Origin: a virus
DNA length: 27,905 nt
Virus record (IMG/VR): IMGVR_UViG_3300034283_001065
Span: 1-27,905 of that record
Strand: one strand, 5' to 3'
Positions 6,516-11,670 of the stretch are shown here, one piece after another; within the stretch, counting starts at the first letter, position 1; the number at the start of each line of letters is the position of its first letter. The notes under the pieces are model-generated. The model did no database searches and had not been told where the DNA came from. It worked only from the letters and a program-made list of their open reading frames with translations. Made by a program: the position numbers and the translations under genes.

Positions 6516-6621
6516 TTCTATTCCCCTTAGCATACGCAGCAGCTTTTGCTTTGCGTGCTTCGATAATTGACTCGATCATGACGTTGAAGAATGTCTTACA
6601 GAGTTTCAGCAGCTTTGTCAT
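6508..6621 (-). CDS. 37-aa hypothetical protein overlapping hsp20 end
   Basis: ATG at 6621 with AGGAAGAAG upstream, inside the last codons of hsp20 in another frame. Begins MTKLLKLCKTFFNVMIESII and continues with EARKAKAAAYAKGNRID. The N-terminal 20 residues form an amphipathic or membrane-binding helix and the rest is basic and Ala-rich. Function unknown. Probably co-expressed late with hsp20. Confidence 0.6.
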   Translation of the reverse strand: MTKLLKLCKTFFNVMIESIIEARKAKAAAYAKGNRID

Positions 6622-7102
6622 ATGCTTCTTCCTGTAAGAGTTGTTTACCTTTACCTGTCTTTACTGGCACTTTCTTTGCCTTTCTTTCTTCTGGTACTAA
6701 TTGATCTAGAGCGATCTTTAGAATACCATTGAAAAGTTCAGCGTCTTTAACTTCATACTGATCGCCGATAGCCCACGCACGTGTGAACGAACGATTAGCA
6801 ATACCTTTGAACAAGTAATCAGTGCCCTCTGGTTCTACCGATTCAGAGTTACCCTTGACAACTAATTTGCCACCATCGATAGTAATGTCGATTTCATTTT
6901 GTGCGAAACCTGCTACAGCGATTTCAATCGTGTAGGTATTACCGTTCTTACGAACATTGAATGGTGGATAGTTAGGGATATTCTTAGTGAGTTCGTCATG
7001 CAATGCTTGCATCTTTGAGAATTGCTCATCAAAGCCAACAAAGACTTTATCAAATTCTTTGAAGTGTTCACCAAAAATAGTTGGAATGAATTTGTGTACC
7101 AT
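6596..7102 (-). CDS. Hsp20/IbpA-like small heat shock protein
   Basis: 168 aa. An ATP-independent holdase that keeps unfolding proteins soluble. A short aromatic-rich N-terminal arm (VHKFIPTIFGEHFKEF) is followed by an alpha-crystallin domain at about residues 45-135 (NYPPFNVRKNGNTYTIEIAV, DITIDGGKLVVKG, AELFNGILKIAL), then a basic tail with VPV in the place of the IxI oligomer motif. The start at 7102 is chosen because GGAG lies 8 nt upstream. An in-frame ATG at 7216 would add 38 residues but lacks a good ribosome site and family resemblance. It has a late promoter and a long leader, so it is likely made during virion assembly. Confidence 0.9.
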   Translation of the reverse strand: MVHKFIPTIFGEHFKEFDKVFVGFDEQFSKMQALHDELTKNIPNYPPFNVRKNGNTYTIEIAVAGFAQNEIDITIDGGKLVVKGNSESVEPEGTDYLFKGIANRSFTRAWAIGDQYEVKDAELFNGILKIALDQLVPEERKAKKVPVKTGKGKQLLQEEAYDKAAETL

Positions 7103-7288
7103 AGTTTTTTCTCCTATTAAGCGAGTTGAAAAACTCTCAAGCAAATCCCCGAAGGCGAATTGAAGAGAGCCATATTTAAAATGCTGGTTACGAGATCCAG
7201 CGACATCGTGCGTCATGTCCGCTTTATCACGCTTCGTTCCATAGCGGTCCTAAGGTGAAGTCTTTACGTTCCCATCCCGATTGGGACA
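7103..7288 (-). promoter_or_regulatory. 186-nt hsp20 leader RNA, possible RNA thermometer
   Basis: Untranslated region between the late promoter start point and the hsp20 ATG. Near the ribosome site, AGTTTTTC (7127-7120) can pair with GAAAAAACT (7111-7103) across a loop that holds most of the Shine-Dalgarno site, leaving one bulged A. The same upstream segment can instead form a local hairpin GAGTT-TTTC-AACTC that frees the ribosome site. An A-U rich clamp over the start of a heat shock gene is typical of RNA thermometers. A further hairpin, GCTGG/CCAGC, lies near 7183-7201. Folding was judged by eye. Confidence 0.4.
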
Positions 7289-7301: not shown

Positions 7302-7304
7302 ATG

Positions 7305-7326
7305 AAAAACCCACCGAAGTGGGTTT
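7305..7326 (-). terminator. intrinsic terminator after pqqA
   Basis: Minus-strand stem AAACCCAC / GTGGGTTT, UUCG tetraloop, then a run of five T. It ends transcripts from pqqA and any read-through from regA before the hsp20 late promoter. Confidence 0.85.
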
Positions 7327-7385
7327 CTCTATATGTTTTTTAAACGCAATCGCCCAAACTTTCGAGCCAGCGTTCCAAATCAGAC

Positions 7386-7457
7386 TTATCTGTTTGCAAC
7401 ATACATTGTTACTTCGAAACCGAAACGCATTTCAGTAGCTGCTGGTTTTGTCCACAT
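7386..7457 (-). CDS. pqqA: PqqA, precursor peptide of the cofactor PQQ
   Basis: 23 codons plus TAA. Reads MWTKPAATEMRF then GFEVTMYVANR. This matches the PqqA family in length, in the W-x-K-P start, in R-x-G-F, and in the E-V-T-M-Y motif. Glu15 and Tyr19 are the two residues that PqqE crosslinks and that become PQQ; the rest of the peptide is discarded. ATG at 7457 has AAGGAG 8 nt upstream; the ATG at 7463 is too close to that site. It stands alone between regA and hsp20, with an AT-rich promoter-like region and a 7-bp inverted repeat before it and a strong terminator after it. PqqB-E are not in the window, so the host's enzymes would be used. A chance match of this quality is very unlikely. 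Confidence 0.93.
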   Translation of the reverse strand: MWTKPAATEMRFGFEVTMYVANR

Positions 7458-7479
7458 AATCATTTCTCCTTAATTAAAG

Positions 7480-7500
7480 ATACGGAAATATTATCCGTAT
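7480..7500. repeat. inverted repeat upstream of pqqA
   Basis: ATACGGA (7480-7486), 7 bp, TCCGTAT (7494-7500). It lies between the TATAAT-like box and the ribosome site of pqqA, about where RNA would begin, so it could be an operator or a short 5' hairpin on the mRNA. Confidence 0.7.
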
Positions 7501-7501
7501 A

Positions 7502-7507
7502 ATTATA
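7502..7507 (-). promoter_or_regulatory. possible -10 box for pqqA
   Basis: TATAAT in the context CTATATAATTATACGG. The expected -35 position reads CGTGTT, which is not a good match, so activity would be weaker than the other early promoters here or depend on an activator. Confidence 0.45.
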
Positions 7508-7520
7508 TAGAAGAAAGAAC

Positions 7521-7547
7521 AAAAAACACGCTAATGAAAATCATTAG
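7521..7547 (-). terminator. weak terminator after regA
   Basis: AT-rich 7-bp stem CTAATGA-TTT-TCATTAG followed after CGTG by six T. It lies 19 nt past the regA stop. The low stem stability suggests partial termination, letting some transcripts continue into pqqA. Confidence 0.5.
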
Positions 7548-7566: not shown

Positions 7567-7983
7567 TTATTTCTTCTTACCGATATTGTACTTTGGAACA
7601 AGTTCCCAGTCATCTTTTTCTTTGTAAGAGACAACTTTAATTTGAGAAAGGGATGCTTGCGGTTCAGCTTTGGCTGGATGTAAAATCTTTAATAGACCCC
7701 AATCCGCCAACAACTTTGCAATAGTATTTCTTCGCTCAATATCGTTTGATGTGATATTAGATTCTTTGCCATCTAACGCAAAGAGTTCTTTGAAATGGAC
7801 AATGAAGTATCTACCTTGCTTATGTAATATGTGGCAAGATTGATAAAGTTTCTTGTCTTTTCTTGATGCGATTCCGATTCGTGTTAGAGTTTCACGAATC
7901 TTTAAGAAATTGTCTGGTTCGTCTAATAGGACTTCCAACATAGAGTCGGCTGTCCAATCATAATAGATCATCTCAACGGTCAT
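7567..7983 (-). CDS. regA: RegA translational repressor
   Basis: 138 aa (T4: 122). RNA-binding protein that represses translation of early phage mRNAs at their start sites. The segment FLKIRETLTRIGIASRKDKK, then YQSCHILHKQGRYFIVHFKE, then RRNTIAKLLADWGLLKI, and the end WELVPKYNIG follow T4 RegA closely. Compared with T4 it has an N-terminal extension of about 13 residues. The start overlaps the gp62 stop as TAATG, so translation is coupled. Confidence 0.95.
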   Translation of the reverse strand: MTVEMIYYDWTADSMLEVLLDEPDNFLKIRETLTRIGIASRKDKKLYQSCHILHKQGRYFIVHFKELFALDGKESNITSNDIERRNTIAKLLADWGLLKILHPAKAEPQASLSQIKVVSYKEKDDWELVPKYNIGKKK

Positions 7984-10750: not shown

Positions 10751-10867
10751 ATTTTTTTCTTGCTTACGTTCGATAGGTGGTGGAAAGTAGGGTTCAATTA
10801 TGTAATGTTGAGCACCCCACCATCCAAACGCACTAAAGAATCCCCAAAGAATGACTTCCGCAATCAT
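10730..10867 (-). CDS. 45-aa small membrane-associated protein
   Basis: ATG overlaps the stop of the SPFH gene (ATGA), so translation is coupled. Begins MIAEVILWGFFSAFGWWG, a Trp/Phe-rich membrane helix, then an external or cytoplasmic AQHYIIEPYFPPP stretch and a charged tail. Similar tiny proteins occur in T4-like marine phages as far as I recall, without known function. Coupling to the SPFH lipoprotein suggests a joint membrane role. Confidence 0.75.
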   Translation of the reverse strand: MIAEVILWGFFSAFGWWGAQHYIIEPYFPPPIERKQEKNLTSESK

Positions 10868-11658
10868 TTCAGCATCAGAGCATTAAAGTTTGCAGGAACT
10901 ACAATAGTTTGCACCTTACCATTCTTAATGCCTTCTGAAATATTCAATGCAGCCTGAGCATTCATAAACGCAATAGAACTAGCAGAGTTGTTTGCTAGAG
11001 CAGCCATACGTTCAGCTTCTTTCTTAGCAGTCTGCACTTCTACTTCCTTCTGTTTGTATTCGTTCTTTGCACGAACAAGAGCATTGGCAGATTCTACAAC
11101 AGAGTCAGCAGGAACTACATTACGAATCAAAACCTGAGAGATGGTAATAGAACCATCCAACTTTTCTTCAGCCAGATTCTTTTGAATCTCTTCACGAATA
11201 ATGGTCTCCATAGCCTCACGATTGTCTGCCATATCAAGTGCTTCATACTTACGTGCAGCTTTGTAAATAGCATTACGTGCATTTTGAACAATGTAGTTAT
11301 ACATTACATAAGTGTCGCCTTTCGCTTCAGCATGGAAAGATTTATTCTTTGTAGAATAAAGTTCAGCGACTTGCTGAGGGTTGATGTTATAAACAACCAC
11401 AGCATCTACGTCTTTCATAGTAGAGTTGTCTTTAGCAACAGGAGTCATATTCTCCAGCACCACGTTCACATCCTTAACTGGGAAAGTCAGAACATCACCA
11501 ATCAAGACTTGGTTGAAAGATCCAGGAAGCAGTTCTCCAGGTTTGACTTGTTTATCAAAGCCAACACGAACACCAACTTCACCTGTCTCAATACGAGTAC
11601 AACCAGTTGCCAAAGCAACAGCAGCAACCAAAGCAGAGATTTTAAATACGCTTTTCAT
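10864..11658 (-). CDS. SPFH/prohibitin-like lipoprotein
   Basis: 264 aa from the ATG at 11658, which has AAAGGAAATTG upstream. N-terminal lipoprotein signal with lipobox LATGC; Cys20 would be lipidated. Residue +2 is Thr, so no inner-membrane retention Asp is present. Then a Band-7/SPFH domain: TGEVGVRVGFDKQV, DVDAVVVYNINPQQVAELY, and NAIYKAARKYEALD, EEIQKNLAEE. A helical segment rich in K/E/A follows (EYKQKEVEVQTAKKEAERMA), then QTIVVPANFNA. SPFH proteins form ring or cage assemblies on membranes and often control proteases. In a phage it might alter the envelope or shield phage proteins from proteolysis; this is inference. Confidence 0.88.
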   Translation of the reverse strand: MKSVFKISALVAAVALATGCTRIETGEVGVRVGFDKQVKPGELLPGSFNQVLIGDVLTFPVKDVNVVLENMTPVAKDNSTMKDVDAVVVYNINPQQVAELYSTKNKSFHAEAKGDTYVMYNYIVQNARNAIYKAARKYEALDMADNREAMETIIREEIQKNLAEEKLDGSITISQVLIRNVVPADSVVESANALVRAKNEYKQKEVEVQTAKKEAERMAALANNSASSIAFMNAQAALNISEGIKNGKVQTIVVPANFNALMLK

Positions 11659-11670
11659 AATCAATTTCCT

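Follow-up and report, generated by a model that had tools for sequence, protein, structure and literature searches.

In PQQ biosynthesis, the pathway consumes one PqqA per PQQ, the Pqq enzymes being reusable, and PqqE crosslinks the Glu-x3-Tyr pair of PqqA. Cyanophage psbA and psbD, as well as other AMGs, are host genes for a used-up or turned-over component that occur in unrelated phages of one guild; a phage-borne pqqA stands apart in that its product, a RiPP precursor, is a peptide substrate, whereas those genes encode enzymes or protein subunits. Such a gene has been reported by Coutinho et al. (2020; PMC7678222), who described PqqA in VP_266, a T4-like phage population from Lake Baikal (35% GC) assigned to Methylophilaceae, and proposed that it supports methanol oxidation. 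The isolate P19250A was said to have none of the AMGs of that study (PMC7678222). Viral pqqA, pqqE, and pqqD are also named, with no further description, in a 2026 study of a reservoir (PMC13188868); the Melnitz paper refers to PQQ solely as a medium ingredient (PMC9004378), and no mention of PQQ was found in the MEP301 and MEP401/402 papers. On the host side, Methylophilaceae carry 3-12 pqqA genes as against a single pqqBCDEFG (PMC4109929). No earlier account of the breadth of phage pqqA was found in the open-access PMC literature. Phage PqqA in one T4-like Methylophilaceae population was thus already known; what is new is how widely the gene occurs, that it stands alone, and that, among 50,697 sequenced phage records, it is confined to methylophages.

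The window analyzed here, a 27,905-base IMG/VR virus fragment (GC 38.6%), carries T4-type genes and is in this respect like VP_266; its DNA polymerase shares approximately 55% identity with the polymerases of T4-like phages of the cyanophage type. An earlier note on this DNA had proposed that a T4-like phage encodes PqqA here, as a 23-residue product of an ORF lying between its regA and hsp20 genes (Table 1), and both the placement and the identification are borne out. The peptide, MWTKPAATEMRFGFEVTMYVANR, matches NCBIfam TIGR02107 (E = 2.7e-11, 43 bits; cut-off 20) and Pfam PF08042 (E = 6.4e-11, 42.4 bits; cut-off 21.1), and the NCBIfam and Pfam profile searches returned no family other than PqqA. 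It also contains the Glu-x3-Tyr pair that the note had pointed out, as Glu15 and Tyr19. On these profile and motif matches, the identity of the product as PqqA is firm. The gene comprises 23 codons on the minus strand, from the ATG at 7457-7455 to the stop at 7388-7386. Another in-frame ATG farther upstream, at 7463, is separated from the GGAG by only 2 nt and probably does not serve as the start.

Table 1. Features in and around the pqqA locus of the window (positions are those of the 27,905-base stretch).
Feature	Position	Strand	Basis and remarks
hsp20, small heat-shock protein gene	6596..7102	-	Downstream neighbor; ORF start MVHKFIPT; same position in sister phages
Terminator-like GC-rich hairpin AAACCCAC-TTCG-GTGGGTTT(TTTC), T run	~7303-7328	-	Downstream of pqqA; from sequence
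pqqA	7386..7457	-	23-aa PqqA precursor peptide MWTKPAATEMRFGFEVTMYVANR, stop included; TIGR02107 and PF08042 matches
Shine-Dalgarno GGAG	7466..7469	-	8 nt before pqqA ATG; from sequence
Small hairpin ATACGGATAATATTTCCGTAT	7480..7500	-	Directly upstream of Shine-Dalgarno; GTCC..GGAC at same place in sisters
Late-promoter-like TATATAATTA	7500..7509	-	TATAAGTG/TATAAATG in sisters; comparison of upstream regions, consensus match only
Hairpin CTAATGATTTTCATTAG, then T run	7520..7547	-	Terminator-like end of regA; same element in sisters
regA-like translational repressor gene	7567..7983	-	Upstream neighbor; ORF, named in the earlier note; same position in sister phages

The clear ribosome site and the dedicated, strong terminator that the earlier note had attributed to the gene are both legible in the window. 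A consensus terminator scanner does not list the terminator-like hairpin, the likely reason being that its stem and T run overlap. Since one hairpin with a T run closes regA and another follows pqqA, the gene looks like a transcription unit of its own. The small hairpin ATACGGATAATATTTCCGTAT is probably located in the pqqA mRNA leader, and TATATAATTA is a candidate pqqA promoter, albeit a weak one in the window; both elements are plainer in sister phages. Among 123 distinct phage pqqA alleles, 121 are preceded by a Shine-Dalgarno-like sequence, and terminator-like hairpins occur upstream of 58 and downstream of 73 (raw counts, without a shuffled control). An Rfam search of the region gave no match of note. 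A 20-aa ORF on the minus strand (7340-7402; MLQTDKSDLERWLESLGDCV) overlaps the end of pqqA, and in a few sister phages a peptide ends in much the same way (...LLESLSDCV/I) but lies in a different frame with respect to pqqA. Conservation of this second peptide is confined to near relatives of the window's T4 group; it may be a small coupled peptide or may be due to chance.

Querying 50,697 phage records with the window peptide (tblastn) returned 12 matches. Nine of these are cultured OM43/LD28 methylophages (Venkman, P19250A, MEP301, MEP401, MEP402, and four Melnitz strains), and one is the uncultured podovirus ctXG6705, the TerL of which is 74% identical to that of Venkman. The next closest relatives of Venkman TerL are pelagiphages, none of them among the pqqA matches, so that carriers and non-carriers contrast directly inside a single virus group. 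The two remaining matches, filed under "Acinetobacter phage MD-2021a," were rejected as phage, since pqqA there starts a pqqABCDE operon among bacterial genes; CAKLQF020000010.1, which holds this operon together with ppk and fur, looks like a bacterial chromosome filed as phage. PqqA queries of the methylotroph, Acinetobacter, and Klebsiella types (the last a control) each recovered the identical 12 of 50,697 records, with no match among the many Klebsiella, Pseudomonas, and Vibrio phages in the set. A link of pqqA carriage to any PQQ-making host was therefore rejected: because three query types return the same records, what predicts carriage is a methylotrophic host, as opposed to any host that makes PQQ.

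TerL and MCP show no recognizable relationship among the Venkman, P19250A, MEP301, and MEP401 groups, which represent four short-genome lineages with pqqA; the T4-type Melnitz phages are a fifth, and the window's T4-like group is a sixth if counted apart. Several known taxa (MEP431-434, HIM624-A, phiMB624-A, Venkman EXVC038S, MG-MTP1, and RSA-MFP1) are not among the matches and may lie outside the searched records, so that the result does not extend to all cultured methylophages. The expectation that so short a gene would be missed by gene callers is confirmed in the ten phage records: the region is without annotation in five, and in the other five (the four Melnitz strains and ctXG6705) pqqA is covered by a hypothetical ORF, which is on the opposite strand in the records examined (L001 2961-3056 and L440 16101-16196 for Melnitz; L007 1955-2083 for ctXG6705). 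These look like miscalled ORFs. In contrast to the published statement on this phage, P19250A (KX815270.1) does carry pqqA, unannotated, at 28085-28153 on the minus strand.

Scanning IMG/VR with a degenerate DNA pattern yielded at least 120 matches, nearly all of them encoding PqqA; together with loci fetched via regA or hsp20, pqqA is present at no fewer than 157 viral loci (some sharing one contig), in at least 94 different neighbor pairs or contexts. Neighboring genes include MCP genes of three unrelated families, T4 tail tube, baseplate hub, SSB, portal, primase, and tail fiber genes. In 20 loci, an MCP gene of one of the three families lies directly upstream of pqqA on the same strand (e.g., L035, L051, L054, L064, L065, L084, L101, L110, L112, and L124, plus the two other families), a position that may place pqqA near strong late transcription. 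Four contigs (L016, L010, L019, and L023) encode a different PqqA type, RLGFEVTMYF, and may represent host DNA or a separate group of phages; in L016, a DUF1127-like ORF adjoins pqqA. More generally, a few of the short IMG/VR contigs with pqqA may be host DNA.

Unlike VP_266 and VP_139, which were reported to contain methanol dehydrogenase and, in VP_139, radical SAM proteins (PMC7678222), the window and related contigs carry pqqA alone. Among 50 viral contigs (38 with pqqA, 11 pqqA-lacking T4-like sisters, and one unrelated pattern match), no methanol dehydrogenase was found and no PqqE scored above its cut-off, the nearest approach being a single sub-threshold radical-SAM stretch in one contig (G013). 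Co-carriage of either gene with phage pqqA was accordingly rejected for this set.

Comparison of alleles indicates that the peptide is maintained by selection, one criterion for a phage AMG. Among the matches listed, 116 distinct pqqA DNA alleles encode 56 peptides, with pS of 0.65, pN of 0.13, and pN/pS of 0.20, values that show purifying selection on phage pqqA with synonymous sites nearly saturated. As for location, a further criterion, the gene lies between phage genes both in the window, where its neighbors are T4-like, and in complete isolate genomes. Because the scan pattern fixes W, K, P, E, V, T, and Y, conservation at these positions is partly ascertained, and that of R and G is partly imposed by a later filter; F14 is invariant though neither pattern nor filter required it. 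A set blind to E and Y was drawn solely from loci retrieved via regA or hsp20, which were screened with the loose pattern M-x(0-3)-W-x-x-P. Every PqqA-like peptide in this set has E15 and Y19, and the remaining peptides that fit the pattern are plainly unrelated ORFs. The earlier note had named the absence of a conserved Glu/Tyr peptide in sister phages, in combination with a host lacking pqqBCDE, as evidence against its proposal; sisters do keep a homologous peptide at the locus.

Looking in related phages for the gene between regA and hsp20, as the earlier note had suggested, shows it at a minority of loci. After deduplication, 21 of 93 regA-hsp20 loci contain pqqA (median gap of 513 nt) and 72 do not (median gap of 354.5 nt). 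A tree of RegA plus Hsp20 implies nine changes of pqqA state, at least six of them forced by well-supported branches; this is a quick-method tree with several long branches, on which gain and loss are not separable. These data characterize pqqA as a presence/absence cassette at regA-hsp20 and not as a fixed part of the locus. No pqqA was found elsewhere on the 110-174 kb contigs of pqqA-lacking T4-like sisters (contigs without host assignment or stated completeness), and the gene may therefore be dispensable.

The bacterial genomes that encode the MRFGFEVTMY core are nearly all those of methylotrophs (Methylophilaceae, Methylophaga, and a few others), and this peptide type points to a methylotroph as host of the window phage. 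Seventeen methylotroph genomes with the core have 1-9 pqqA copies each, and most streamlined OM43/LD28 genomes (0.9-1.3 Mb) have 2-3. The phage peptide is of the same 23-aa type as the products of the multi-copy pqqA genes known from Methylophilaceae (PMC4109929) and from further methylotrophs (PMC9851590); in its commonest form it does not differ from a common Methylophilaceae peptide. Phage pqqA also resembles the stand-alone host copies in lying apart from pqqBCDE, a matter of precursor dosage only; it is unlike them in being virus-encoded and set between phage genes. A host without the Pqq pathway, the other half of that adverse finding in the earlier note, is not what the candidate hosts present as regards PqqE: exactly one copy above the cut-off is found in eight of nine candidate host genomes, the ninth being a 0.9 Mb single-cell assembly. 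Methanol dehydrogenase is present in all nine, and host genomes contain further, lower-scoring PQQ-dehydrogenase-like genes.

Taken together, these data lead us to favor, with reasonable though not high confidence, the view that a stand-alone and usually unannotated pqqA is near-universal in phages of PQQ-dependent methylotrophs, occurring in at least five unrelated or distantly related lineages and showing recurrent gain or loss at the regA-hsp20 locus of T4-like phages, with the virus supplying only the RiPP precursor and the host all of the enzymes. With regard to function, we think it likely that this genuine phage-borne pqqA supplies precursor to host Pqq enzymes for methanol dehydrogenase. 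An infecting phage would make the host-type peptide, host PqqD and PqqE would crosslink its Glu15 and Tyr19, and the remaining host Pqq enzymes would convert the product to PQQ, which would load the host methanol dehydrogenases (XoxF/MxaF) and sustain methanol oxidation and energy supply. The phage would need pqqA alone, because PqqA is the only pathway component consumed one-for-one, and its gene would extend the hosts' own dosage strategy of many pqqA copies and one pqqE. We infer that pqqA would be expressed, that its product would be processed by host enzymes, and that the phage would benefit, be it through a rise in supply or through its maintenance after host shut-off. Given how many phages carry the gene, it probably serves them in general to sustain methanol metabolism while they infect. 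As hosts already hold several pqqA copies, added phage supply could be redundant with them. The medium used to culture the OM43 host and the Melnitz phage contained PQQ (PMC9004378), so that growth there says nothing about a need for pqqA.

Within this reading, phage pqqA might replace host PqqA lost after host shut-off instead of boosting supply, a version that we regard as a serious contender at somewhat less than even chances. Once the phage has silenced host transcription, fresh host PqqA would no longer be made although the Pqq enzymes persist. The same genetic evidence applies to it, including the status of PqqA as sole consumed component; terminator-like hairpins isolate phage pqqA in many genomes, and the gene often lies beside late structural genes. 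Cyanophage psbA, which replaces D1, offers a parallel. Replacement and boost are not separable by sequence.

It is also conceivable, although we judge it improbable, that the PQQ derived from the phage peptide has a role outside methanol dehydrogenase, for instance in another PQQ dehydrogenase, in redox protection, or through release at lysis. In favor of this, PQQ acts generally as a redox cofactor and the hosts have additional PQQ-dehydrogenase-like genes; however, Klebsiella, Pseudomonas, and Acinetobacter make PQQ, yet their many phages are without pqqA. Still less credit attaches to a decoy or inhibitor that occupies PqqD/PqqE and lowers host PQQ, or that signals, without being converted. 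Short peptides can be competitive inhibitors and overproduction could titrate PqqD, but no PqqA-like peptide, in the motif-free set or otherwise, has lost the reactive Glu15 or Tyr19, and the commonest phage peptide is the host substrate itself. Finally, although stand-alone pqqA copies scattered in host genomes would make contaminated contigs look alike, and a few IMG/VR matches such as L016 may be host DNA, a chance ORF, relic, or host contamination is hardly credible overall and is refuted for the window and the isolates by pqqA in complete isolate genomes, by the T4 genes on both sides of the window gene, and by purifying selection with nearly saturated synonymous sites.

If precursor supply for methanol dehydrogenase is the correct reading, a search aware of small ORFs would detect pqqA in the majority of phages that infect PQQ-dependent methylotrophs, phage PqqA would be present in infected cells, and loss of pqqA would cost a phage on methanol, with rescue by added PQQ. 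Much carbon passes through methanol in lakes and coastal seas, where OM43/LD28 bacteria rank among its main consumers. Should most of their phages carry this 72-bp gene, infection would bear directly on methanol oxidation, and pqqA would provide a host marker for uncultured phages, because the peptide type is found almost only in methylotrophs. As pqqA also shows, standard gene callers can conceal a common viral metabolic gene, one that makes a simple, testable case for whether such viral genes matter.

The 5' leader of hsp20 (window 7103-7273, minus strand) is itself conserved over roughly 140-175 nt, with the layout CACCTTAGGRC ... GCTGGA-N-GTAACCAGC ... GCCTTCGGGG stem ... CTCGCTTAATAGGAG. 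Across 23 diverse sister hsp20 leaders, the predicted helices are paired in 97.7% of cells, and both-sided changes occur in 11 of 21 pairs, a level reached by none of 500 shuffles. The final helix is invariant and includes the Shine-Dalgarno sequence, which faces a UCGCU segment; we take this arrangement to be reminiscent of ROSE-type RNA thermometers. A comparison of the leader with Rfam gave no match of note, and we regard it as a candidate new cis-regulatory RNA. Its 15-nt end motif precedes various genes in at least 120 viral stretches, and the CACCTTAGG part is also present in 21 of 80 examined stretches with that motif. Elsewhere in the window, two minus-strand ORFs resemble, by eye, a secreted thermonuclease (2330-2773) and an SPFH/prohibitin-like lipoprotein (10864-11664).
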